Assembly: GCF_009725985.1 (NCBI RefSeq)
Contig: NZ_RCNR01000004.1
Coordinates: 1 to 64,000, forward strand
Length of the DNA: 64,000 nt
Source of the DNA: Zobellia amurskyensis
GTDB lineage: Bacteria > Bacteroidota > Bacteroidia > Flavobacteriales > Flavobacteriaceae
Direction: 5' to 3'
Part shown: positions 20,530 to 51,081 of the stretch, piece after piece
How the letters are laid out: each line of letters starts with the position of its first letter
Numbering within the stretch: position 1 is the first letter of the stretch
The notes under the pieces: model-generated
Databases searched by the model: none
What the model was told of the DNA's origin: nothing
What the model saw: only the letters and a program-made list of their open reading frames with translations
Position numbers and translations under genes: made by a program

Positions 20530-21258
20530 TTATCCCTTTTTTGATTTAATTGCTCGGTCTTCGCCATAGATGTAATCATACAGTTTGCTAAAGTGCGCTT
20601 TCATCTTTTCTTTGGCTAATTTTGGATCTTGATTTAAGATGGCCAAATAAATATCTTCGTGTTTTTTAACTTCTGATAAAGCCACATCGCCATCACAGAC
20701 ACGATCTTTATCATAAGCTACTATAATCTCTGGCGTTATCAGTAACATAAGTGTATTAATGGTACTGTTTTTACTAGCCGCCGCTACTGCTAAATGAAAA
20801 AGTAAATCTTCTTCTAGGCAACCTTCACCAGCAATCATCTTTATTTTGTATGCATCAAAGGCAGACTTAATACGCTCTAAGTCTTCATCCGTTCTTCTAA
20901 GGGCCGCTAATTTCACCGTTTTGAGTTCCAACAAAATACGGGTCTCTACTAACGATTTAAAATCTTGTTCCGCTAAACTCAGAATATCATCGATCATTCC
21001 TTTCATGGCAATTTGACCAATGTTGGCAATGAACGTACCGCTTTGCGGTTTGGAATTTAAAATTCCATAAAATTCAAGTTTTTGTATTGCCTCCCTAACG
21101 TTACTTCTACTAACTCCAAATTTTTCAGACAACACTCTCTCGGCAGGCAACTTGTCACCTGGCTCAAGATTTTTGTGATTTATAAGGTCACGAATTTTTG
21201 AAATAATCCCATTTTGGATTTCTCTGTTATCGTGCTTTGTGAGTATTTCTAGTTTCAT
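20530..21258 (-). CDS. FadR-type GntR regulator of the alginate regulon, copy 1
   Basis: The product has 242 residues. The winged helix (about 10-80) includes GDKLPAERVLSEKFGVSRSNVREAIQKLE-type GntR sequence (shown in parts: LPAERVLSEKFGVSRSN, then VREAIQKLEFYGIL). An FCD effector domain follows with metal-binding-type histidines (FHLAVA near 154, KKHEDIY near 201). It is about 88% identical to the regulator at 30680-31408 by my count (29 differences). It has its own promoter and a paired operator between promoter and ATG, and follows susC-susD copy 1. Confidence 0.93.
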   Translation of the reverse strand: MKLEILTKHDNREIQNGIISKIRDLINHKNLEPGDKLPAERVLSEKFGVSRSNVREAIQKLEFYGILNSKPQSGTFIANIGQIAMKGMIDDILSLAEQDFKSLVETRILLELKTVKLAALRRTDEDLERIKSAFDAYKIKMIAGEGCLEEDLLFHLAVAAASKNSTINTLMLLITPEIIVAYDKDRVCDGDVALSEVKKHEDIYLAILNQDPKLAKEKMKAHFSKLYDYIYGEDRAIKSKKG

Positions 21259-23056: not shown

Positions 23057-26000
23057 TTAAAATTTTAAATTAACGCTAATATTCACCGTTCTTACAGTTG
23101 GGTAATTCCCAAAATCAAATCCTTGAGCGGTATTGCTTGATGTATTGTTATCTCCGTTTGACCCAACGTAGTTTACTTCAGGGTCTAAGCCAGAGTAGTT
23201 TGTAAAAGTCAATAAATTTTGTGCGCTAATAGATAGTCTAAGGTTGTCTAGTCCAAATTTTTCAATGATGTCAGAAGGTATGTTATATCCTAATGCAATA
23301 TTCTTCAGTCTAATATAACTACCGTCTTCTACGAAGCGAGAAGAAATTTCTCTATTACTATTGTTGCCTACACGAGGTTGGTTTGTGTTCGTATTTGAAC
23401 TTGTCCAAGCATTATTGAAATAGTCTCTAGTAGTATTAGCATCTCCATTGTTCAGCTGAACATTAGTCATATTAAATATATCACCTCCTTGCGAACCTTG
23501 GAAAAAGATGCTTAAATCAAGATTTTTATAGCTGAAGTTGTTGGTAAATCCAAAAGTGTAATCTGGATTTGGATTACCAATTGTCGTTCTGTCATCTTCA
23601 GAAATGTCTCCACTATTATCTAAATCAGCAAACAATGGGTCTCCTGCTATACCACCTGATAAAGTAGCTGTTCCTGCTGGTACGGCACCTCCTTGGTATA
23701 CACCTGCGTATTCATATCCCCAGAAAAGGCCAACTTCTTCTCCTACTCTTAAAACATAACTTCTATCGTTACTAAAGTAACTTGGAGCTGCATCAAAGAA
23801 TAAATCGGCATCGTTTATTAACGCAGAGACCTCATTCTTGTTAGCTGATAAGTTAAAGTCTGTAGTCCAACTAAAATTGTCATTAGAAACATTTCTAGTA
23901 CTTAAAGAAATTTCAAATCCTTTGTTATTAATCTCTCCCAGGTTTGTTAAGATTTCATTATTTGAGAATCCAAAATATTCAGGTATACTGTTGTTTCCAA
24001 GAATTAAATCTTTGGTGTCTATATTGTAATAGTCCAATGATAAAGAAACCTTATTGCTGAACAAACCTAAATCTAAACCAAAGTTAGTCTGGTAAGATGA
24101 TTCCCATTTTAAATCTGAGTTAGCAGGTTGCTCCGGTGTAATAGCGTGCACCGTTTGCCCATTGTTAGAAGCATAGATACTTTGGATTTTAGCTAAAGAT
24201 TGGTAAGGGCTAATTGAAGGGTTTCCTGTTACACCATAACTTGCTCTTAATTTTAGGTTAGAAACCGTTTCACTATCTTTTAAGAAGTTTTCGTTAGAAA
24301 TTTTCCAGCCAATAGCACCAGAAGGGAAAATGGCATATTTTTCATTTTCAGAAAAGTTGGAAGCTCCATCTCTTCTTACTGTAGCCGTGATTAAGTATTT
24401 GTCATCATAATCGTAATTCACCCTACCAAATTGAGACTGAATTTCTGTTTCTTCTAAATACGCATCAGGCTGTAATGTATTTAAAACAGTACCTAGTCCA
24501 TAGTAAGAAAAAGCATCTGAAATAATACCTGTACCAGCCACAAAAGACTCATCTGTTTTTGTTTTTTGATAAGAATAACCAGCCAACAAAGTTAAATTTC
24601 CTTTTCCTATTTCATTTTTATAAGTTAAGTAGTTTTCACTCAAGAGGTTTGTTTCTTTGCCGTTGGTAAAGCTAGCTCTGCCTCCTACGCCACCTGCGGT
24701 AATCTTTAATGTTGATGGTTGATAAATTCCTCTGGTTTGATTTCTAGTACTTAAACCAAAGGTTGTTTTGAATGCTAGGTTTTTTAAAATATCATAATTA
24801 GCATAGAAATTTGCTCTGAAATTATCAGTAACAGTTTCATCATCTCTTACCGTTGCAACAGCATACGGGTTATCTACTTCATCTCCTACCTTGTCATTCG
24901 TGGTAAAAGTACCGTCTTCATTATATACACCTTTATCAGGAGCAAAACGCATTGCTAAAGAAATTACATCGTCACCACCTACTGTAACAGAACCGTTAGA
25001 TTGTGTGGCAACTCCATTTTTAGTTCCTCTACTACCAAAAAGATTAAGTCCTAATTTTAATTTGTCAGTTACTTGCGCGTCTAGGTTTGTTAAGAATGTA
25101 GCCCTTTCGAAACCAGAATTAACTAAGATACCATCTTGTTTAAAATAGTTACCGGAAGCATAGAAGTTCATTTTTTCTGTGCCGCCAGAAAAAGAAAGCT
25201 GGTGATTAGAAGTACTACCAGTTGTGTAAATTAAATCTTGCCAATCTGTATTTGCTGATTGTTGCGTGTATATGGCAGGTGCTTCTCCTTCTGTTAATGC
25301 ACGGTTATTATTTACTTGTTGTTGATATGTGGCAAATTCACCTGCATTTAATAAATCTAATCTATTAGCCGTATTTTGAATAGCGTAAGTAGAATTCAGT
25401 TCAACAGTTAATTTACCGCTTCTACCTTTTTTAGTAGTTACTAAAACAACACCGTTTGAACCTCTAGAACCATAAATGGCGGTTGCAGAAGCATCTTTTA
25501 AAACTTCTAAAGATTGAATATCACTTGGTTGAGGCATTGTTGCTCCTACAAAACCATCTACAACAATAAGAGGAGAACTGTTTGCACTAATTGAAGTATT
25601 ACCTCTAATTTTTATGCTGATAGGAGCTCCTGGCTCGCCACCGTTATTTGATTGCACAACCACACCAGCGGCACGACCTTGAAGTGCTTGGGCAGCGTCC
25701 AATACCGGAAATGCATTTAATTCTTCAGATTTAACTGAGGATACAGAACCTGTAATATCACTCTTTTTTCGCGCGCCATACCCTACCACAACAACCTCTT
25801 CCAGAAGGCTTGCGTCTGTTGCAAGGGTGACATTAAGAGTTTCTTGACCGTTAATAGTAACAGTCTTGCTACTAAACCCTAAAGAAGAAAATTCTAGTAC
25901 ATCACCATTGTTAACTGTAATAGAGTAATTACCGTCAAAATCCGTAGAAGTCCCGGTTGTAGTATTTTGAATAACGACGTTAGCCCCAGGAACTGGAACA

Positions 26001-26107
26001 TTGGTGTCATCGATTACTGTACCGGTCAAATTATAACCGTCTTGTGCAAATAGCGATATATTGAAGCACAATAACGCTATAAGTGTTAGTTGAGATTTAA
26101 AATTCAT
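23057..26107 (-). CDS. SusC-like TonB-dependent transporter, alginate locus copy 1
   Basis: The product has 1016 residues. After a signal peptide (ends LFAQ) comes a carboxypeptidase-regulatory-like domain (YNLTGTVIDDTNVPVPGANV), a TonB-box-like EEVVVVGYG near 104, the plug (about 115-230) and a large beta-barrel ending TVRTVNISVNLKF. It imports oligosaccharide across the outer membrane with SusD. The 335-base leader holds the GntR operators and a candidate antisense RNA, as in the second alginate susC at 37527-40631. Confidence 0.94.
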   Translation of the reverse strand: MNFKSQLTLIALLCFNISLFAQDGYNLTGTVIDDTNVPVPGANVVIQNTTTGTSTDFDGNYSITVNNGDVLEFSSLGFSSKTVTINGQETLNVTLATDASLLEEVVVVGYGARKKSDITGSVSSVKSEELNAFPVLDAAQALQGRAAGVVVQSNNGGEPGAPISIKIRGNTSISANSSPLIVVDGFVGATMPQPSDIQSLEVLKDASATAIYGSRGSNGVVLVTTKKGRSGKLTVELNSTYAIQNTANRLDLLNAGEFATYQQQVNNNRALTEGEAPAIYTQQSANTDWQDLIYTTGSTSNHQLSFSGGTEKMNFYASGNYFKQDGILVNSGFERATFLTNLDAQVTDKLKLGLNLFGSRGTKNGVATQSNGSVTVGGDDVISLAMRFAPDKGVYNEDGTFTTNDKVGDEVDNPYAVATVRDDETVTDNFRANFYANYDILKNLAFKTTFGLSTRNQTRGIYQPSTLKITAGGVGGRASFTNGKETNLLSENYLTYKNEIGKGNLTLLAGYSYQKTKTDESFVAGTGIISDAFSYYGLGTVLNTLQPDAYLEETEIQSQFGRVNYDYDDKYLITATVRRDGASNFSENEKYAIFPSGAIGWKISNENFLKDSETVSNLKLRASYGVTGNPSISPYQSLAKIQSIYASNNGQTVHAITPEQPANSDLKWESSYQTNFGLDLGLFSNKVSLSLDYYNIDTKDLILGNNSIPEYFGFSNNEILTNLGEINNKGFEISLSTRNVSNDNFSWTTDFNLSANKNEVSALINDADLFFDAAPSYFSNDRSYVLRVGEEVGLFWGYEYAGVYQGGAVPAGTATLSGGIAGDPLFADLDNSGDISEDDRTTIGNPNPDYTFGFTNNFSYKNLDLSIFFQGSQGGDIFNMTNVQLNNGDANTTRDYFNNAWTSSNTNTNQPRVGNNSNREISSRFVEDGSYIRLKNIALGYNIPSDIIEKFGLDNLRLSISAQNLLTFTNYSGLDPEVNYVGSNGDNNTSSNTAQGFDFGNYPTVRTVNISVNLKF

Positions 26108-26245
26108 TCTGTTTAATGTTAAGTTAGTGATGTTAATCAGTTTAACGGAGGGCGCTTACGCAAGACTTTGTGAAGGTCTTAGTCAATCTTCAATTTACTA
26201 TAATACGGACTCAGTACTGTCCCTTATTTTTTTGTATTTTTGTAA

Positions 26246-26343
26246 TGAGCGTGTATAGTAAAATGTACAAGTTCTTAGTATTACTTTCCTTCAGAAAGAA
26301 GTAATTTTAGTTAAAAGGATGGGCGTGCACCCGTCCTTTTTTT
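26246..26343 (+). ncRNA. Candidate antisense sRNA opposite the susC copy 1 leader
   Basis: On the plus strand a -7 box TATTTTTG (26235-26242) precedes about 98 bases that end in a 7-bp terminator stem (GGATGGG/CCCGTCC, 26317-26336) plus a run of seven T. An internal hairpin ATTACTTT/GAAGTAAT lies at 26280-26305. The same element occurs at 40767-40865. Differences between copies give U-G pairs on this strand but C-A mismatches on the other. No clear -33 TTG is present. Antisense sRNAs opposite susC leaders are known from Bacteroides (DonS), which supports but does not prove this. Confidence 0.6.
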
Positions 26344-26411: not shown

Positions 26412-26453
26412 TGGTTTTCCATACTGGTTTACCAATTTGGTTTACCAAATATA
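26412..26453 (-). promoter_or_regulatory. susC copy 1 promoter with triple GntR operator
   Basis: Three sites 13 bp apart are present: TGGTTTTCCA (26412-26421), TGGTTTACCA (26425-26434) and TGGTTTACCA (26438-26447). On the minus strand the -7 box TATATTTG (26453-26446) overlaps the first site, so a bound dimer would cover the start region. No TTG is found at the -33 position, only a T/A-rich stretch, which suggests a weak promoter. Confidence 0.75.
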
Positions 26454-30679: not shown

Positions 30680-31408
30680 TTACCCTTTCTTTAATTTAAC
30701 ATCCTGCTGATCTCCATAAATATAATCGTAAAGCTTTTTGAAATGGGCTTTCATTTTTTCTCTGGCTACTTTTGGGTCTTGATTTAAGATGGCCAAATAA
30801 ATGTCTTCGTGTTTTTTAACTTCCGATAGGGCTACATCACCTTCGCATACACGATCCTTGTCATAGGCAACAATAATCTCTGGGGTTATAAGTAGCATAA
30901 GCGTATTCATGGTGCTGTTCTTGCTTGCAGAAGCTACTGCTAAATGAAAAAGCAAGTCTTCTTCTAAACAGTCTTCGCCGGCAAGCATCTTAACGTTGTA
31001 TGCATCCAAGGCAAATTTTATACGCTTTAAATCTTCGTCCGTTCGTCTAAGGGCCGCTAGTTTTACCGTTTTTAATTCAAGCAAAATCCGGGTTTCTACT
31101 AACGAAACAAAATCTTGTTCTTCTAAGCTGGTAATATCATCGATCATGCCGTTCATGGCAATTTGGCCAATGTTAGCAATGAAAGTTCCGCTTTGTGGTT
31201 TGGAGTTTAGTATACCGTAAAATTCAAGTTTTTGTATGGCTTCGCGTACACTACTTCTGCTGACTCCAAACTTCTCAGATAGTACTCTCTCGGCAGGTAA
31301 TTTGTCACCTGGCTCAAGATTTTTGTAATTAATGAGGTCGCGAATTTTTGAAATAATATCATTTTGTATTTTTCTATTTTCGGTTTTGGTCAGTATTTCT
31401 AGCTTCAT
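30680..31408 (-). CDS. FadR-type GntR regulator of the alginate regulon, copy 2
   Basis: The product has 242 residues and the same architecture as the regulator at 20530-21258. Most differences are conservative or lie in the N-terminal 30 and C-terminal 15 residues. One change falls in the recognition helix (FGVSRSS here, FGVSRSN in copy 1, residue 53), so the two could differ slightly in operator preference. It has the same promoter and leader as copy 1 and heads the PL6-Nramp operon. Effector unknown, presumably KDG, KDPG or an unsaturated uronate. Confidence 0.93.
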   Translation of the reverse strand: MKLEILTKTENRKIQNDIISKIRDLINYKNLEPGDKLPAERVLSEKFGVSRSSVREAIQKLEFYGILNSKPQSGTFIANIGQIAMNGMIDDITSLEEQDFVSLVETRILLELKTVKLAALRRTDEDLKRIKFALDAYNVKMLAGEDCLEEDLLFHLAVASASKNSTMNTLMLLITPEIIVAYDKDRVCEGDVALSEVKKHEDIYLAILNQDPKVAREKMKAHFKKLYDYIYGDQQDVKLKKG

Positions 31409-37526: not shown

Positions 37527-40500
37527 TTAAAAGTCAATGTTTAGACCAAATGTCACCGTTTTGAATATAGGTGTACCTGCTCTTTGTGAACCATATGCTC
37601 TAGGGTTGCTGCCGTCAACATGTTCTGGGTTGAAACCGTGGTAATCATCTGCAGTAAGATAAAGTAGGTTCTGTGCAGTGGCATAAAGCCTTAAGCCGTC
37701 TAAACCTATTTTAGAAGTTACGTCAACAGGAAAGTTATACCCAAGATTTACATTTCTTAACGAAAAATAATCAGAGCTTGCAATAACCTCACTTGTTAAT
37801 ACCTTTTCTTGAATAAAAGATTCATGAGGTACAAGGCCGTCGGCAACTGCTTGTGCTTCACCACCACTACGGGTTCTGTTTCCAAACCAGTTATAGAAAT
37901 ACTGGTCACCAATATTATTTACCTGGCCACCCACGCTTCCTTGAACCATGAAAGAGAAATCAAAATCGCCAAATTTAAATTCATTGGTAAAACTATATAC
38001 CAAATCTGGATAGGGGTCTCCTAGAATTGTTTTGTCCTCATCGGTAATTAATCCATCACCATTTAAATCTTTTACTATAGTATCGTCAGCTTGTCCATTA
38101 ATACGGTTCCAAGGAGAATCAACATAAGTAGTCCTAAAAGAAGGTTCATCATACGCTTCTGTATCAACCACATAACCCCAGAAAGAAGATATAGGTTCTC
38201 CTATTCTATTAATCCATTGAGAGTTTCTGCCGTAATCATCTTCGATTAATGCGTTGTTGGAATCTCCAAAACTTAGTAACTCATTTTTATTGGTAGAAGC
38301 AATAAATGTGCTGTTCCATGAGAATTTTTCGCCAATTATGTTTTTGGTTCTCAGTTCTAGTTCCCATCCTTTGTTTTGTACCTTACCTAAGTTTACGATA
38401 CCATTGTTAAATCCTGTAATGTAAGAAACAGGGTTGTTCAATAGTAACTCATCACTAGTTCTTTGATAATAATCTAAAGACCCTGAAATTCTATTGGTAA
38501 AGAAACCGTAATCTAATCCAACGGAAAATTCTTCAGAAGCTTCCCATTGTAATAAGGCGTTTGCAATGTTACGAGGTGATACACCTGAAGCAATACTTCC
38601 ATCATCTATTGCATTTGAATTTTGTAATAGTGCTAAATAAGGCCATGCATTTACAACATCATCACCAACATTAAAATTCTCAGCACCGGTTAGACCATAA
38701 CTAGCTCTGAACTTTAGGTTGCTTACCTTATCACTGCTAGCTAAGAAGTTTTCTTTTGCTACATTCCAACCTACGGATACTGCAGGGAAATTACCCCACT
38801 TGGAGTCGATACCAAAAACAGAACTTCCATCACGTCTAAAAGAAGCATTGAACAAATATTTTCCTAGGTAAGCATAATTTACTCTGGCGAAATATCCTAT
38901 CTTTTTTAATTCAGTATTGGTTTCAACAGGAATGTCAACTAGGGTAGCGCCTTGGAAGTTTTTTAGCAAATCATTAGAAAATCCACCACCGGTAGTTATA
39001 CTTTCTTCAGATACCCTTTTTTGTATGGTAATACCTCCAAGTAAATTTAAATCATGCTTATCATTAAATGTTTTAGAATAGTTTAGGGTATTATCAGAAA
39101 TTAATCTACTTCTAAATCTATTTCCTAAATAATAAGCGGCTCTACCAGCACCCCCTGCATGGTGCAATGTGCCATCATATCGTGTTCTTTTTCTTTGCTC
39201 AAGAGTTACACCCAATGATGTTCTGGCTGTAAGGCCGTCTGCAATTTCATAACTTAAATAGGTTGACCCAAATAATTTGGTGTTATACTCATAATGCTCT
39301 CGCTCAACATATTGAGCATATGGGTTTGAATCTCCCGAAGTACGAGGTCTACTTGTACTACCATCGCCGTTGATGTCTAAGTTCAATAAATGGTTTTCAT
39401 AGAAATAATCGCCAACACCAACATCTGGGTAAGAACTACGATCTATAAATTGAAGGGATTCTTCAGTATGATAAATAGGTAACCATGGCGATTGACGTAT
39501 TGGATTGTGTATTGAGGTAGGTAAACGTCTTTGCTTAGTATAAGAAGGTGTAGCACTAAGTCCAAATTTTAATTTATCCCCAATTTTAGAATTAACCTTT
39601 AAACTGGCGGTATATAATTTGTAGTCATCTGTTATTACAACACCCTCATCACTCAGGTATCTTAAAGAAGCACTGAACTTAGTGTCTTCTGAACCACCTC
39701 TTGCAGATAGGGAATGGCTTGTAACGGTTCCTCCATCAAAGAAAACATCTTGCCAATCTCTGTCAACACCGGTAGTTGCAACTAAGAGTTGCGCGTATTG
39801 TGTTTCATTGGAAAGAGTTCCTGTTTGCGCTTGTTCAATTGCTGCCCAATCCGCTACACTTTTACTGTAATCTTCACTTTTATGGGCGCTTTTATAACCT
39901 GAGTAAGTTTGGTAACTAAATTTGGTTTTACCCGCCTTACCACTTTTTGTAGTAATTAAAATAACACCGTTAGAACCTTCACTACCATAAATAGCAGCAG
40001 ACGCGGCATCTTTCAATATTTCAAAAGACTCTACATCGTTCATATCAAGATTTCCTAGAAAATCTGAGCTTACGATTATTCCATCGACCACTAATGCTGG
40101 TCCTGAATCAGCCGTTACGGAACCTATACCTCTAATAGTAATAGTAGGGGCTCCACCAGCTTCGGCATTGGTTGCTTGAATGTTAACACCGGAAACTTGA
40201 CCTACAAGAGCATCATCTACCCTTGAAACAGCAATTTGGTCTAAGCTTTCATTGGTAACTTTGGATATAGAACCGGTTAATGTTGATTTCTTTTGTGTAC
40301 CATAACCAACTACAACAACCTCGTCTAGTTGACTGGCGTCTTCTTTCATGGTTATAGATAATTCGGTTTGACCGGTTATCGCTATTGTTTGAGTCACATA
40401 GCCTATGTATGAAAACTGAAGTAAGTCGCCTTCTGAAACATTTATTTGAAATAATCCGTCAAAATCTGTAGAAGTACCCCTGGTGGTATTGGCGATTATA

Positions 40501-40631
40501 ACATTTACTCCTGGTATTGGAACGTTGTCCGCATCGATAACCGTACCTGACAACGAGTAAGTATCTTGTGCGAATAGGGATATATTGAAGCACAATATAG
40601 CTATAAGCGTTAGTTGAGTTTTAAAATTCAT
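37527..40631 (-). CDS. SusC-like TonB-dependent transporter, alginate locus copy 2
   Basis: The product has 1034 residues from the ATG at 40631 (MNFKTQLTLIAILCFNISLFAQ). An in-frame ATG at 40661 would add ten residues before the signal. Domain order is carboxypeptidase-regulatory-like repeat, EVVVVGYGTQKKSTLTGSIS plug start near 110, and a long barrel ending PIFKTVTFGLNIDF. The signal peptide and first domain are closely similar to SusC copy 1, while the barrels differ. The two transporters may therefore take oligomers of different length or M/G content. Confidence 0.93.
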   Translation of the reverse strand: MNFKTQLTLIAILCFNISLFAQDTYSLSGTVIDADNVPIPGVNVIIANTTRGTSTDFDGLFQINVSEGDLLQFSYIGYVTQTIAITGQTELSITMKEDASQLDEVVVVGYGTQKKSTLTGSISKVTNESLDQIAVSRVDDALVGQVSGVNIQATNAEAGGAPTITIRGIGSVTADSGPALVVDGIIVSSDFLGNLDMNDVESFEILKDAASAAIYGSEGSNGVILITTKSGKAGKTKFSYQTYSGYKSAHKSEDYSKSVADWAAIEQAQTGTLSNETQYAQLLVATTGVDRDWQDVFFDGGTVTSHSLSARGGSEDTKFSASLRYLSDEGVVITDDYKLYTASLKVNSKIGDKLKFGLSATPSYTKQRRLPTSIHNPIRQSPWLPIYHTEESLQFIDRSSYPDVGVGDYFYENHLLNLDINGDGSTSRPRTSGDSNPYAQYVEREHYEYNTKLFGSTYLSYEIADGLTARTSLGVTLEQRKRTRYDGTLHHAGGAGRAAYYLGNRFRSRLISDNTLNYSKTFNDKHDLNLLGGITIQKRVSEESITTGGGFSNDLLKNFQGATLVDIPVETNTELKKIGYFARVNYAYLGKYLFNASFRRDGSSVFGIDSKWGNFPAVSVGWNVAKENFLASSDKVSNLKFRASYGLTGAENFNVGDDVVNAWPYLALLQNSNAIDDGSIASGVSPRNIANALLQWEASEEFSVGLDYGFFTNRISGSLDYYQRTSDELLLNNPVSYITGFNNGIVNLGKVQNKGWELELRTKNIIGEKFSWNSTFIASTNKNELLSFGDSNNALIEDDYGRNSQWINRIGEPISSFWGYVVDTEAYDEPSFRTTYVDSPWNRINGQADDTIVKDLNGDGLITDEDKTILGDPYPDLVYSFTNEFKFGDFDFSFMVQGSVGGQVNNIGDQYFYNWFGNRTRSGGEAQAVADGLVPHESFIQEKVLTSEVIASSDYFSLRNVNLGYNFPVDVTSKIGLDGLRLYATAQNLLYLTADDYHGFNPEHVDGSNPRAYGSQRAGTPIFKTVTFGLNIDF

Positions 40632-40766
40632 TTGTGTTAATGTTAAGTTAGTAGTATACATCGGTTTAAGGCCCGACGCCTAAATGAAATTGTGCTAATT
40701 TCATCTAATCTTCAACTTACTATAGCACGTAACTCATTAACGTCCCTGAATTTCGTAATTTTGTAA

Positions 40767-40865
40767 TGAGCGTGTATAGTAAAATGTATGTGTTCGTAGT
40801 ATTACTTCCCTTCAGAATGAAGTAATTTTTGTTAAAAGGATGGGTGTGCGCCCATCCTTTTTTTT
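40767..40865 (+). ncRNA. Candidate antisense sRNA opposite the susC copy 2 leader
   Basis: The -7 box TAATTTTG (40756-40763) on the plus strand precedes about 99 bases with an internal hairpin ATTACTTC-N10-GAAGTAAT (40801-40826) and a terminator GGATGGG/CCCATCC (40839-40857) followed by eight T. The first 30 bases (TAATGAGCGTGTATAG onwards) and the whole 3' half match the copy at 26246-26343. It lies in the same place relative to the susC start and the GntR sites. Confidence 0.6.
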
Positions 40866-40934: not shown

Positions 40935-40976
40935 TGGTTTCCCATACTGGTTTACCAATTTGGTTTACCAAATATA
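40935..40976 (-). promoter_or_regulatory. susC copy 2 promoter with triple GntR operator
   Basis: Sites TGGTTTCCCA (40935-40944), TGGTTTACCA (40948-40957) and TGGTTTACCA (40961-40970) are 13 bp apart. The minus-strand -7 box TATATTTG (40976-40969) overlaps the first. The arrangement is the same as at 26412-26453. Confidence 0.75.
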
Positions 40977-42505: not shown

Positions 42506-44767
42506 TTACTTTTTATTTACATTGATAAATTGGTAAGGTCCCGTCCAACGATATTCCTTGTTCTTAATTTTTAAAATGTGCTCTTTATTGGGCTGTTTGT
42601 CTTCATTTGCCAATACTAGCATAAGTTGATTGCCGTTGGACTTCGTTTCTATTACGACTGCAGTATATTCTTTAGTTTCTACCATAAGTTCTATTTTGGA
42701 AATTGCACTATTCGCATTTACCGAAAACTCTGAAACCGGACTATACTGCCCATGTGATTCCACGACTGAAACGAATGTTGTGTTTTGTGTGTTTTTTCTT
42801 CTGATGATAAGACCGGCATCCCTTCTTAAATTAAATTCGGGATCGTTGGCGCCAATTCGGACAAAATTTAATTCATCACCTTTATCACTTACAGTAGTTA
42901 GCGTATAAAAGTGTCCATTTTCTAACCAGCTGAGTTTGGCGTTATTTTCTTTAGGCTGTCCTTTTCCTTCTAGCCAAAGATGTTGATAGCCATGGTCAGA
43001 ACCTAATGTCTCTAGACTTTTAGGGTTGATAAAATCAAAATTAGTTTTCATAACCTGTCCTTTAAAGTAGAAGGGAAGGTCATATTGGTTCTCGGTAGTA
43101 GATACCACTTTTAGTATATCTAGTAAAAAAGGTTTTTCAAAACCATCGGCTTTTATCAATGCCATGGTGCGTTGCATTTCGGTACCAGGGTATGCATTCT
43201 TTTCTTTGGCACTTACAACTTGTACCTCTGGATTGGAAGTGTCAAAAAAGTAAAGGTCCGAATGGTGTTTGCTACCTACTTCATACTTTCCACCAAAATG
43301 TGAAGTTTCATTTTGAACAAGGGCATTGTGGGCTATTGTTTGTTTGGCCCAGGTCTTATTTTCTTTTAAATAATTACCTCCGCCTTTTTGCTCAATGTTC
43401 ACAAAACGGGCTAATCCATAATCTTGTAATATTTCTGTACCTTTTTCATAAAGTGAAAAAGAGAGTTTGTCATAATGTCCGTGGCTTAGACCTTGAGCGG
43501 CATATTTAAAAACCAAGGTCATGTCTTCATTGCCATATCTTAGTATGCCTACGCCACCTTGTTCACCGTTGGCGCCATCAGTTAAATTAATAGATTTCTT
43601 TTGAAACTTTTCAGCTTTCCCGTCCCTAATACCTATGGCAACGGCTAGACCGGAATCATCTAATAAAACCTGACCTTGTTCTTCTGCGATGCTCAATAAC
43701 TGTGGATTATGACCACCGTAGTGATACGCAATATCAAGAGCAGTAACTACTTCACGAGACTTGTATGACATCCCTTTTTGTGCATCGTTCAATGGGAAGA
43801 ATTCTCCATCCGCATCGGAAAGGTTTATCAATACATCAACGGATTTTAGCAAAACACTATCCTTATGCTCAAAAATCTTTTGCTCAGGCTTTACATTGTG
43901 CAGCGCCTCGGCAAAAATTAGGAAAGGATACATGGCATATCTTTGGTAGTAGGGCCCTTCCGTATAATATCCGTCAGGGGAAAATGGCTCATCTACATTG
44001 GCAAGAAAACCAACTTCCTGACCTTCTATTTTTATAAATCCTCCATCGTTATCCTTTGCTCCAATAGGTAATCCGTCGTCTTCTATTCCGTATAACGCTC
44101 GCTGAATTAATTCATCATCGTCCATTACCAAACCAATCATGCCAACGGCAGCATTGCCCCATGTACTATGGTTGTGAACACGATTATAGAATTGTGGATT
44201 TTCTATGGATATGAAATCTGCAAAAGGTCTGAAAAGATTTTTTTCAAGTTGCTTACGTTCTTTTTTAGATAGATAATCATATACACAATCATAGGCCTGA
44301 CTTACGTAAACCAACCAGTTGGAGTCATTAAGACACTGCCAGAATAATTTACCTCTAGCGTATGAACGCGTTTGCGGATGTACGGGCAAATCTTTGTACA
44401 TAGCTTCATACTGAAACAACATGTCCTTGATGTAGATGGCATATTTTTCATCATCTAAAATCTGATATAATACACCGGCTTTTTGAAGAATCAAAAAGTT
44501 AAGCTTGTGGCGTGAGTGAGTATATCCACCAGAATAATCTTTAGGTATCGGGGTTTCAATTCCTAATGCTATTTCGGCATCTACCTCGGCTTTTACTTTT
44601 TCTAATGTAGCATCAAAAATAGGAACGTTACCTAGTTCCGCTCTTATCTTCTGTACGCCCTCTTTGGTTAAAATTAGGCTTGGGTGCTCCTGTGAACGAC
44701 CACTAAAGGATAGTAGTAGAACACAAATGAAAATTTGCAATGCCGTTATATGTTTAATCATCTTCAT
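42506..44767 (-). CDS. PL17 oligoalginate lyase
   Basis: The product has 753 residues. A signal peptide (about 1-25) is followed by the alpha/alpha-toroid domain and the heparinase II/III-like beta-sandwich. The catalytic region carries Asn199-His200 (RVHNHSTWGNAAVG) and a Tyr in EGPYYQRYAMYPF (270-282), which correspond to the N-H and Tyr of characterised PL17 enzymes. HGHYDKLSFSLYEKG in the second domain is the family motif. It acts exolytically on oligomers to release unsaturated monomer in the periplasm. Transcription comes from a GntR-controlled promoter 330 bases upstream, across a structured leader. Confidence 0.94.
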   Translation of the reverse strand: MKMIKHITALQIFICVLLLSFSGRSQEHPSLILTKEGVQKIRAELGNVPIFDATLEKVKAEVDAEIALGIETPIPKDYSGGYTHSRHKLNFLILQKAGVLYQILDDEKYAIYIKDMLFQYEAMYKDLPVHPQTRSYARGKLFWQCLNDSNWLVYVSQAYDCVYDYLSKKERKQLEKNLFRPFADFISIENPQFYNRVHNHSTWGNAAVGMIGLVMDDDELIQRALYGIEDDGLPIGAKDNDGGFIKIEGQEVGFLANVDEPFSPDGYYTEGPYYQRYAMYPFLIFAEALHNVKPEQKIFEHKDSVLLKSVDVLINLSDADGEFFPLNDAQKGMSYKSREVVTALDIAYHYGGHNPQLLSIAEEQGQVLLDDSGLAVAIGIRDGKAEKFQKKSINLTDGANGEQGGVGILRYGNEDMTLVFKYAAQGLSHGHYDKLSFSLYEKGTEILQDYGLARFVNIEQKGGGNYLKENKTWAKQTIAHNALVQNETSHFGGKYEVGSKHHSDLYFFDTSNPEVQVVSAKEKNAYPGTEMQRTMALIKADGFEKPFLLDILKVVSTTENQYDLPFYFKGQVMKTNFDFINPKSLETLGSDHGYQHLWLEGKGQPKENNAKLSWLENGHFYTLTTVSDKGDELNFVRIGANDPEFNLRRDAGLIIRRKNTQNTTFVSVVESHGQYSPVSEFSVNANSAISKIELMVETKEYTAVVIETKSNGNQLMLVLANEDKQPNKEHILKIKNKEYRWTGPYQFINVNKK

Positions 44768-44892
44768 GTTTAATTAAGTAATTGTCCTCAATCATATTTT
44801 TACACTACTTCCTGTCAAAGCAAAGTTACTGTCGTAGTTGTAAGATGAAACTTTGATGAATATAGAAGCCATTATTGTTTTCATGTAATTAA

Positions 44893-48021: not shown

Positions 48022-51000
48022 ATGAATTTCAAAAACCGATTTTCCAAAATCATCTGTGCTTCCGTATGGTTGGTTACCTGGGCTGGATTTAGTTCCACTC
48101 CTTCCCACTCCTTATTTCCAGAGCCCGATGAAACAACATTTCTCAATTTGAGAAATAATTTAAAACCCGTACAGCAGTCTATTTCTGGGACTGTTACCGA
48201 TGAAACCGGTGCGCCTTTGCCCGGAGCAACAGTATTAGAAAAAGGTACAACCAATGGTACCACAACAGACTTTGATGGTAACTATATTATTGATGTTGCC
48301 CAAAATGCTGTTCTTGAAGTTTCTTATCTGGGGTATTCAACAAAAGAAATTTCAGTAAACGGGCAAGCAACTATTAATGCTCAATTGGAGCCAGATGCCA
48401 CTCAGTTAGAAGATGTGGTTGTGGTTGGTTATGGTACGCAAAAAAGGTCTGATGTTACCGGTTCTATTGCTTCCGTTAAGAGTGAAGACTTTAATAAAGG
48501 GGTAGTGACCAACCCAGGTGAGCTTCTACAAGGGAAGATTGCTGGTGTAAATGTTACTTCAGTTAGCGGTGAGCCAGGGGCTTCACAGAATATCGTTATC
48601 CGTGGTGTTGGTAGTTTTAGATCAGGTACGACGCCGTTATTTGTTATTGACGGTTTTGTAATCGATAATACATCAACAGGGGTAGCGTCCAATCCTTTAA
48701 ATTTTATTAATCCACAGGATATAGAATCTATGGATGTATTAAAGGATGCTTCTGCAGCTGCAATTTATGGTGCTAGAGCCGCAAATGGTGTAATTGTCAT
48801 AACCACCAAAAAAGGTAAAGCAGGTAAAAGTGAAATGAATTTATCTGTTTCTACCGCATTTTCTACACTAACCAACCAGATGGATATTTTTGGTTCGGAT
48901 GAGTTTAGAAGACAAGTTCCCGCTGCTGGTGGTACACTTGTAGATGGTGGTGCCAATACAGATTGGCAAGATGAGCTCACTAGAACTGGGATTACCAAAA
49001 ACGTAAACTTCTCTATGAGTGGTGGTGGTGCTGATAAGTTTTCTTACTATGCTTCGGTTGGTGTAAATGATCAACAAGGTATTTTTGAGAACAGTTCTTT
49101 AAAAAGATACTCAGGTCGTTTGAACTTAAATCAAAAAGCTTTTGATGGTCGTTTAAATGTCGATTTTAATATGACGGCTTCAAGAATCCTGAACAATAGG
49201 CCAGAGGCTAGTGCCATAGTAACAGATATGTTGGAGTTGAACCCAACCGTTCCGGTATACACGAACGGGGTTCCAACGGTTCTTGACGATAACCGATTAA
49301 ATCCTATTGTTCGCAATCAGATTTATTTAGATGAGGCCAATAGCAACAGAATCCTGGCTAATATTGCGCCATCTGTAGAAATTATAAAAGGGCTGACCTA
49401 CAGGTTAAATCTTGGCGTAGATTATTCTTCTACAAACCGGGATGAACAGCAAGCCCCCTATGCCTTGCTAGAAGATTTTAACCAAGGAACTTTAAACTCT
49501 AGGGTAATTACGAATCAAAATACTTTGGTTGAAAATACATTGAACTACACGTTCAGTAAAGGAGATCATAATGTTACCTTTTTGGTGGGGCATTCGTATC
49601 AAGAGGTACTTCTACAGCAAAAAATATTTGAATTGGAGAGTTTTGCTACAAATGATATTGAACCTAGGTACCAAGATCAAATTAGTAGTCAAGAATTTCC
49701 AACGAGTTTGTTTTCTAAAGCGGAAAAGAATGAGCTAGAGTCTTATTTTGGAAGGTTAAATTATGGTTATAAAGATAAGTACCTGTTAACGGCAACTATG
49801 CGTGCAGATGGTTCTTCTAGATTTGGAGAAAATAATAAATACGGGTACTTCCCTTCTGTAGCTTTAGGGTGGAATATAAGTAAAGAGAACTTTTTGGCAG
49901 AGAGCAGTATTGTCAATAACTTGAAATTAAGAGCAAGTTGGGGACAGACCGGTAATCAAGAGGGTATTGATAACAAGGTGTCTTTGGCAAGTTATACAGA
50001 TAGTAAAGCAGATAATGATACCTACCCTTTAGATGATGGCGCTACTACTTTAGATGGTTACCCGTTTGGTACGGTACCTGCACGTACGGCTAACCCAAAC
50101 CTTAAATGGGAAGTAGCCACATCCACAAATATTGGTCTAGATTTTGGTCTGTTCAACAACAGGTTAACGGGTACTTTTGATTATTTTAAAAAAGTAACAA
50201 CGGATGTAGTGATGTTCGCAAATCGTGTTGACCCTATACAACCAACCGAGAAAATTTGGACGAATCTAGAGAATTTAGAAATCCATAACTCTGGTGTTGA
50301 ATTTGCTTTGGATTATAGAGCAGTTATCGGATCAGACTTTACAATGAACATTGGTGGTAACGTTTCTTTTATCGATAATGAGGTTAAAGATTCCCCATTT
50401 GCAATTATAACCACAGGGTCGGCACAGGGTGCGGGCCAAACGGGTGCAACTATAAATGGTTACCTGAACAACCAGCCAATAGGAACTTTTTACGTGAAAG
50501 AGTTTGTTGGGATAGGTGAGGACGGAAAAAACCTGTTTAGGGATGTTAATGGCGATGGTGAAATTTTGGATGATGACCGTATTGCCGCCGGTAGTGCACT
50601 ACCAGATGTTTTGTACGCATTCTATTTGAAGTTCGATTATAAGAATTTTGACCTAGGTCTTAATTTTAATGGGGTGTCCGGTAATAAAATTTACAATCAC
50701 ACAGCCATGTCTTCTTTCTCTAAAGGCCAATTGAGTAGAAATTTGAATACTACGGATTTTGCTATTCAGTATCCTGCTGAAGATGTAAGTAATTCAAATG
50801 AGGTTTCTACTCGCTATTTAGAAGATGGTAGTTTCTTACGATTGAACAATGCCACTTTAGGGTATAACCTTTTGGCAGATAAAATTGGGTTGGATGATTA
50901 TGTAAATAACATCCGTTTCACGCTAACAGGACAAAACTTGTTTTTGATTACTGATTACACAGGCTATAATCCAGAAGTAAATACAGGTGAAGCAATAGAC

Positions 51001-51081
51001 GGTATTCAGACTTTTGGTATCGATAGATATACCTACCCTTCTCCAAGAACAATATTGGTTGGTTTAAACGTAACCTTTTAA
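48022..51081 (+). CDS. SusC-like TonB-dependent transporter, third locus
   Basis: The product has 1019 residues. A signal-like N-terminus (about 1-32) and spacer precede the carboxypeptidase-regulatory-like domain (ISGTVTDETGAPLPGATV), the EDVVVVGYGTQKRSDVTGSI plug start near 132 and the barrel ending SPRTILVGLNVTF. Its N-terminal domain differs from the two alginate SusC proteins, and it lacks their GntR sites. It therefore probably serves another substrate. Confidence 0.93.
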   Translation: MNFKNRFSKIICASVWLVTWAGFSSTPSHSLFPEPDETTFLNLRNNLKPVQQSISGTVTDETGAPLPGATVLEKGTTNGTTTDFDGNYIIDVAQNAVLEVSYLGYSTKEISVNGQATINAQLEPDATQLEDVVVVGYGTQKRSDVTGSIASVKSEDFNKGVVTNPGELLQGKIAGVNVTSVSGEPGASQNIVIRGVGSFRSGTTPLFVIDGFVIDNTSTGVASNPLNFINPQDIESMDVLKDASAAAIYGARAANGVIVITTKKGKAGKSEMNLSVSTAFSTLTNQMDIFGSDEFRRQVPAAGGTLVDGGANTDWQDELTRTGITKNVNFSMSGGGADKFSYYASVGVNDQQGIFENSSLKRYSGRLNLNQKAFDGRLNVDFNMTASRILNNRPEASAIVTDMLELNPTVPVYTNGVPTVLDDNRLNPIVRNQIYLDEANSNRILANIAPSVEIIKGLTYRLNLGVDYSSTNRDEQQAPYALLEDFNQGTLNSRVITNQNTLVENTLNYTFSKGDHNVTFLVGHSYQEVLLQQKIFELESFATNDIEPRYQDQISSQEFPTSLFSKAEKNELESYFGRLNYGYKDKYLLTATMRADGSSRFGENNKYGYFPSVALGWNISKENFLAESSIVNNLKLRASWGQTGNQEGIDNKVSLASYTDSKADNDTYPLDDGATTLDGYPFGTVPARTANPNLKWEVATSTNIGLDFGLFNNRLTGTFDYFKKVTTDVVMFANRVDPIQPTEKIWTNLENLEIHNSGVEFALDYRAVIGSDFTMNIGGNVSFIDNEVKDSPFAIITTGSAQGAGQTGATINGYLNNQPIGTFYVKEFVGIGEDGKNLFRDVNGDGEILDDDRIAAGSALPDVLYAFYLKFDYKNFDLGLNFNGVSGNKIYNHTAMSSFSKGQLSRNLNTTDFAIQYPAEDVSNSNEVSTRYLEDGSFLRLNNATLGYNLLADKIGLDDYVNNIRFTLTGQNLFLITDYTGYNPEVNTGEAIDGIQTFGIDRYTYPSPRTILVGLNVTF

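Follow-up and report, generated by a model that had tools for sequence, protein, structure and literature searches.

A conserved putative antisense RNA in the susC leaders of alginate utilization loci of Flavobacteriaceae

Results

An antisense element lies in both susC leaders of the alginate locus

The window, by which we mean the whole 64,000-nucleotide stretch of Zobellia amurskyensis DNA analyzed here, holds an alginate utilization locus. Its genes comprise two susCD pairs, two PL7 lyases, one PL17 lyase, one chondroitinase-B/PL6-like enzyme, a KdgF-type cupin and two AusR-like GntR/FCD regulators; the names KdgF and AusR are assigned to these genes from context. For copy 1, susC transcription is predicted to start near 26441 and the ORF begins at 26107. 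The leader of about 335 bases proposed in an earlier account made from the letters alone (the sequence-only reading) therefore holds.

In both susC leaders, the strand opposite susC bears a -7 box (TAnnTTTG), three hairpins and a terminator with a U-tract (Table 1). The sequence-only reading had described the box, an internal hairpin, a terminator with seven T and a transcript of about 98 nt opposite the copy-1 leader. We found each of these, with predicted lengths of 97 and 98 nt, as well as a third, 5' hairpin that it had missed. The RNA ends are predictions: the 3' end is the end of the T-run, and the 5' end was set from the box, which lies at -12 to -5 relative to the RNA start according to PMC9723704. 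No plus-strand ORF of at least 100 aa occurs between 18198 and 41843, so the element terminators end no such gene.

The first hairpin differs in its letters between genera, yet a hairpin is present there in most of the folds among those listed. In hairpin 2, the TTACTTC/GAAGTAA stem is nearly invariant among the aligned copies, and the loop starts with CC in 65 of 75. The predicted RNA is 85-116 nt long in 71 of these 75 copies, namely those having a box within one mismatch.

Table 1. Features of the alginate locus in window coordinates, with the places of a second RNA family elsewhere in the same genome.
Feature	Positions	Strand	Basis
GntR/FCD regulator, AusR-like (second copy at 30680-31408)	20530-21258	-	
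susC copy 1, presumptive target gene	23057-26107	-	CarbopepD_reg_2 and Plug domains
Copy-1 antisense -7 box, TATTTTTG	26235-26242	+	sequence
Predicted antisense RNA of copy 1, 97 nt, on the strand opposite the susC leader	26247-26343	+	fold z -5.9; covariance model R1, E 1e-15
Hairpin 1 (5' hairpin), copy 1	26247-26274	+	predicted fold
Hairpin 2, copy 1 (TTACTTY/GAAGTAA stem, C-rich loop)	26280-26305	+	alignment, pair tally
Intrinsic terminator, copy 1, seven T; directed away from susC, towards the susC promoter	26313-26343	+	
Presumed AusR operator: three repeats resembling GGTTTACC that overlap the predicted start of susC transcription	26413-26446		
susC copy-1 -7 box TATATTTG	26446-26453	-	
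susC copy 2, presumptive target gene (start homologous to that of copy 1 near 40631)	37527-40661	-	domain match
Copy-2 antisense -7 box, TAATTTTG	40756-40763	+	
Copy-2 antisense RNA, predicted 98 nt	40768-40865	+	fold z -6.1; covariance model R1, E 1.5e-16
Hairpin 1, copy 2	40768-40795	+	predicted fold
Hairpin 2, copy 2	40801-40826	+	fold, pair tally
Terminator, copy 2, eight T	40834-40865	+	fold, pair tally
Presumed AusR operator of copy 2: repeats resembling GGTTTACC	40936-40969		
susC copy-2 -7 box TATATTTG	40969-40976	-	
Second-family predicted RNAs, own genome, outside the window (the family also at loci L309-L371)	C7:96053-96129, C17:80240-80320, C54:11590-11664, C76:5183-5260		

Base-pair changes in the stems favor the antisense strand

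Compared with dinucleotide shuffles, the antisense folds of copies 1 and 2 were markedly stable (z -5.9 and -6.1), with none of 200 shuffles equal. The minus-strand fold was weaker for copy 1 (z -2.5) and equally good for copy 2 (z -6.2). Base changes also bear on the strand, since wherever one strand pairs G with U, its complement has C facing A. The sequence-only reading had rested its choice of strand on two differences between the window copies, a U.G (copy 1) vs U-A (copy 2) pair in the terminator stem and a U.G vs C-G pair in hairpin 2. Both are present. It overlooked a third, the pair closing the terminator loop, which read on the antisense strand is C.A in copy 1 and U.G in copy 2. Because this difference goes the opposite way, the two window copies alone are not decisive on strand.

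With more copies aligned, the stem changes did favor the antisense strand over that of susC, as had been anticipated. A scripted pair tally of all 35 copies found by blastn, covering 17 positions, gave 34 G.U and 0 C.A stem cells on the antisense strand; including the outer pair of hairpin 2, which is frayed, makes this 37 and 1. This indicates that selection acts on the antisense RNA. Two positions next to the loops behave differently: the terminator loop-closing pair is C.A in 25, G.U in 3 and Watson-Crick in 6 of 34 copies, and the position just inside hairpin 2 is C.A in 21 of 35 and another mismatch in the remaining 14. At both, the antisense C.A would pair as U.G on the sense strand. These positions are best read as loop, not stem.

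In the wider set of 75 distinct model-aligned rows, whose alignment leans towards the model, there were 77 G.U and 11 C.A cells; C.A outnumbered G.U in six rows, four of which (L101, L103, L111 and L112) look decayed. On a tree of SusC N-termini (71 taxa), the alignment requires a minimum of 61 G.U changes, 24 of which fall at a single pair, against a minimum of 10 C.A changes. The antisense strand was the more stable in 59 of the 75 copies, the sense strand in 15, and one was a tie.

These counts bear on the possibility that the structure belongs to the susC mRNA, as a protein-binding site, a processing site or a riboswitch-like leader. The hairpins do form on the sense strand, where both loop-closing positions are U.G. 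However, the stem cells (34 vs 0) and the tree (at least 61 vs 10 changes) favor the antisense strand, to which the long T-run and the -7 box also belong, and there is no Rfam match. We rejected a sense-strand leader element on the G.U/C.A counts and regard it as very unlikely.

Covariation was assessed in 23 copies, because the alignment of all 35 placed the 3' arm of short-loop variants wrongly and 12 rows were excluded from the resulting covariance model, R1. In these copies, 98.3% of cells pair, both partners have changed in 17 cells, and the alignment has a covariation score of 0.171; none of 500 shuffles reached any of these values. The other two of the five measures were unremarkable: two-sided change is seen at 3 pairs (32 of 500 shuffles), and there are 12 further pair types (495 of 500 shuffles). 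Taking strand, stability and covariation together, we conclude that the predicted antisense RNA is the selected product.

Two further readings of hairpin 2 fared poorly. Half-sites that hardly vary (TTACTTC/GAAGTAA) would suit a DNA inverted repeat serving as a second operator, but the spacer between them is 6-12 nt, and 20 in one copy, which breaks the helical phase, and a G.U bias has no meaning in DNA. Rejected on spacer variation, this reading is extremely improbable. We give equally little credence to a short coding RNA for a peptide such as MFLVLLPFRMK. A frame of 10-13 codons ends in the GAAGTAA stem in W1 and W2 (window copies 1 and 2) and in several close relatives; across the 75-copy set, though, a frame of 9-20 aa occurs in 35 copies, in differing registers, is longer or open in 9 and is lacking in 31. 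The peptide reading was rejected for this want of conservation. In the window, the 13-codon frames through hairpin 2 (MYKFLVLLSFRKK and MYVFVVLLPFRMK) lie at 26263-26304 and 40784-40825.

The element is conserved upstream of susC in many Flavobacteriaceae

A blastn search with the copy-2 element (E <= 0.001) gave matches in 35 of 299 Flavobacteriaceae genomes, 33 of which carry the true element; the only match in each of genomes G047 and G076 was false when read. Among individual rows, L043, L044 and L045 were dropped as false and L046 as a repeat of L020. At E <= 0.01, R1, built from the 23 copies, had matches in 103 of the 397 family genomes searched. The covariance search within Flavobacteriaceae that the sequence-only reading had put forward as a check thus recovered the same element upstream of other susC genes. 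Within its own genome, R1 found both alginate copies at E <= 1e-15, the rest being echoes or chance matches at E >= 0.026. A third susC of the window (48022-51081) is without an R1 element.

We inspected 40 R1 matches, mostly weaker ones. Twenty-two lie antisense upstream of a SusC N-terminus, five of them at E > 1e-4, and two (L097 and L100) are in alginate loci where the stretch holds KdgF but not SusC. The other 16, which have no SusC nearby, resemble ordinary terminators and all have E > 1e-4, were dropped. From a later set of 83 model matches, eight were dropped as opposite-strand or partial echoes. In a sample of the phylum, 16 of 395 genomes matched R1, and matches with E < 1e-4 came solely from Flavobacteriaceae, the window's own family.

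A pattern scan of one named genome per species found 115 places, of which 107 are antisense upstream of SusC, seven lie at a slice edge and one is placed otherwise. They include Zobellia, Maribacter, Arenibacter, Kordia, Aquimarina, Lutibacter, Flagellimonas and other genera; those named are presumably all Flavobacteriaceae. The alginate element is also present in G001, a genome of the same genus as the window. Among the pattern-scan records are one Cytophaga sp. and one Bacteroidia bacterium.

In 73 inspected loci, SusC was in the stretch in 69 (all but L029, L039, L097 and L100) and KdgF in 63. Not every alginate locus carries the element. A strong KdgF match was found in 88 of 299 genomes, with a sound R1 match in 59 of these and none in 29. 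Eleven of these 29 genomes had SusC in the stretch, with an antisense terminator in four, one that appeared degenerate by eye in another (L180) and none in six; three of these six have short leaders, in which the -7 box is 138-182 nt from susC.

Some loci depart from the usual arrangement. At L029 (same genome as L255) and L097, the leader and antisense RNA precede, in place of susC, an AusR-type regulator gene 67% identical to its window counterpart. L039 and L063 (genome G236, second copy) keep the element and the susC promoter region, but of the susCD pair itself only the final 33 residues of SusD are left, followed by an AusR-type gene. At L101, L103, L111 and L112, the last two being second copies in a genome, the element has a broken terminator or weak stems. 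The antisense RNA thus seems to decay in some susC paralogues.

The antisense and susC promoters differ in their presumed operator repeats

An exact TAnnTTTG lies 30-74 nt before hairpin 2 in 27 of the 35 blastn-found copies, against a mean of 1.2 and a maximum of 6 in 200 mononucleotide shuffles. In the set of 75, the antisense box is exact in 52 and within one mismatch in 71, a lenient count because each copy was scored by its best site over 32 nt. The pattern-scan matches have an exact box in 96 of 115 (those less than 90 nt from a slice edge being unscored) and a T-run in 109 of 115. No -33 element was established.

On the other side, the susC -7 box word TATATTTG is identical in all 35 copies compared. 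GGTnnACC repeats occur on the susC side in 73 of 75 copies and near the antisense promoter in one of 75; these repeats, which include the GGTTTACC-like ones, are presumed to be the AusR operator. Their near-confinement to the susC side suggests that the two promoters are under different control.

Measured in 35 copies, the distance from the element terminator to the susC -7 box is 35-105 nt, a position well suited to shielding the susC promoter. This spacing would fit transcriptional interference or insulation, in which an antisense polymerase fires into the leader and stops before the operator, the RNA being a by-product. Such a by-product leaves unexplained the G.U bias and covariation in hairpin 2 and the terminator stem, as well as the near-invariant TTACTTC/GAAGTAA stem and the C-rich loop. 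We consider this explanation unlikely.

The element resembles DonS-type antisense RNAs of Bacteroides

DonS of Bacteroides was reportedly described by Cao et al. in 2016. In the parts of PMC7366714 and PMC11697453 that were available, DonS and DonS-like RNAs are cis-antisense RNAs of Bacteroides PULs, 78-128 nt long and divergent to susC, and DonS represses its PUL by a mechanism stated there to be unknown. By description, the alginate element is like DonS in being a predicted short, separate RNA divergent to susC. Its predicted sizes of 97 and 98 nt, with an own promoter and terminator, fit the class range of about 78-128 nt, and it is encoded opposite to and divergent from susC in both window copies and in 107 of 115 pattern matches. 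It differs from DonS, as described in the same parts of these sources, in that its PUL is one for alginate with a GntR-type repressor and the PULs of DonS are for mucosal glycans, in lying deep inside a long leader, and in being a conserved three-hairpin RNA across many genera.

The FopS and GibS sRNAs of Bacteroides (RF04319) are a second point of comparison; FopS down-regulates susC operons, according to the available part of PMC11697453. As described there, FopS acts in trans near the start codon through a single-stranded seed, unlike the alginate element, which is cis-antisense in the leader. The FopS model (RF04319) scored 19.3 bits against a cut-off of 56. Across Rfam 15, including Flavo-1, no window match rose above its gathering cut-off, and around both elements there were sub-threshold scores only (E <= 5).

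Flavobacterium psychrophilum, for which antisense RNAs and Rfp sRNAs are described, belongs to the same bacterial family and has the same -7 box; the antisense RNAs were catalogued and compared with those of Bacteroides PULs in the available sections of PMC9723704. The antisense-RNA section and further passages of that paper name no susC-leader antisense RNA. The AusR system of Zobellia galactanivorans concerns the same genus and the same locus type, and the passages available from PMC8286568 and PMC8073546 present AusR as a GntR repressor of most alginate genes, lifted by alginate oligosaccharides. These passages give a protein repressor only and no antisense RNA (PMC8286568, PMC8073546).

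Among the open-licence papers listed, none concerned an antisense RNA of an alginate susC gene; neither Cao 2016 nor Dudek 2020 belongs to that set. Dudek et al. (2020) is said to deal with AusR regulation of the alginate genes in Z. galactanivorans. DonS-type control is already known (PMC7366714, PMC11697453); the alginate-leader RNA, which has no Rfam match, would be a further form of it.

A second putative antisense family occurs at FecR-type susC genes

We scanned the 400 nt upstream of the best 30 of 57 SusC matches in the window's own genome for terminators. Six susC genes had an antisense terminator and four a sense one, with none in five shuffled sets. One of the six antisense terminators is that of alginate copy 1, another (L142) is a hairpin that was counted once on each strand, and two share the stem CGGGAAATG/CATTTTCCG. 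As a pattern, this stem occurs at three places in the genome, each antisense upstream of SusC, and in 24 of 199 family genomes. All 32 pattern loci that were read are antisense to SusC, 30 with a T-run and 19 with an exact box, and the -7 box commonly overlaps the susC start codon. Each of the three own-genome copies sits between susC and a gene that was judged FecR-like by eye. FecR-type susC loci have, we presume, an ECF link.

A second covariance model, R2, was built from 22 of the 32 loci, its terminator stem being fixed by the search pattern. It had matches in 16 of the 345 phylum genomes searched, including two that do not belong to the family, and gave four own-genome matches at E <= 4.1e-5 and one at 0.057. 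Thirty of 31 R2 loci are antisense to SusC, the exception being an opposite-strand echo of another locus. The predicted RNA has two hairpins, the 5' one GTGRTTA/TAATCAC-like, and its letters are unlike those of the alginate family; genome G001 has seven such places. Two more of these susC leaders, L143 (own genome, C19) and L155 (C28), have antisense terminators of other sequence, which are perhaps further families of the same kind.

The arrangement of the second family is like that of DonS, here in a different bacterial family. With it, antisense control of susC looks widespread in Flavobacteriaceae, in support of the broader inference of the sequence-only reading, which had placed a DonS-equivalent device in the alginate locus. 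We think it more likely than not that leader-embedded antisense RNAs form a general layer of nutrient-uptake control in Flavobacteriaceae, with at least two unlike RNA families.

Discussion

With the anatomy, strand, conservation and linkage to susC described above, our preferred reading, at odds of about two in three, is that the element is a cis-antisense sRNA gene with its own -7 box and terminator inside the susC leader, and that it represses susC in the manner of DonS. The comparative evidence agrees with the antisense RNA, strand and DonS-like position proposed from the window letters. The RNA would probably silence susC when alginate is absent.

Under such a mechanism, AusR would hold susC down at its operator in the absence of alginate. 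The sRNA would be made from a housekeeping-type promoter, and as this lacks AusR repeats, its production should continue. Loop-loop contact is a common start of antisense RNA pairing and is established for plasmid copy-number RNAs; here, the C-rich loop of hairpin 2 may first touch the complementary G-rich loop of a leaked susC leader. The two RNAs would then zip up, and the duplex might lead to mRNA cleavage or an early transcription stop. With alginate present, strong susC transcription would outrun and titrate the sRNA, the outcome being a sharp threshold for the susCD operon.

Computed duplex energies of -136 to -174 kcal/mol indicate that either window sRNA can pair with both leaders. The pairing site lies about 140 nt or more from the susC start codon in the window, which makes a direct block of translation unlikely. 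A search by eye for a leader ORF behind the GGAGG-like sense loop and for a downstream sense attenuator found nothing convincing.

The C-rich loop could instead regulate other alginate genes in trans, its position opposite susC being happenstance. Hairpin 2 is conserved beyond what automatic cis complementarity needs, and pairing with the translation start of PL17 (window 44708-44887, minus strand) exceeded shuffles, at z -3.3 with one of 200 shuffled targets equal. However, the PL17 match, from the window only, is weak after 20 gene tests; the other 19 of the 20 gene starts in the window paired no better than shuffles, and the loop-complement pattern had 27 window matches against 26.5 expected. 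The hairpin-2 loop also changes in some genera, and the loci that were read keep the element within alginate loci, in the leader of either susC or AusR. We judge a trans-acting role a little less likely even than transcriptional interference, and return to cis-antisense repression as the preferred reading.

SusC-type transporters decide which polysaccharides marine bacteria eat, and alginate is a main polymer of brown algae. A conserved antisense RNA would add an RNA layer to the control of alginate uptake, which the available passages on the subject tell as a story of the AusR protein repressor. DonS-type control in turn gains a broad comparative alignment, in which the conserved hairpins, the conserved loop and the strand-specific pattern of pairing offer targets for mutation. 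In Zobellia, gene deletion is possible and ausR mutants exist. If leader-embedded antisense RNAs are indeed general in Flavobacteriaceae, then together with DonS they would make antisense control of susC recurrent across the phylum, perhaps with more than one origin.
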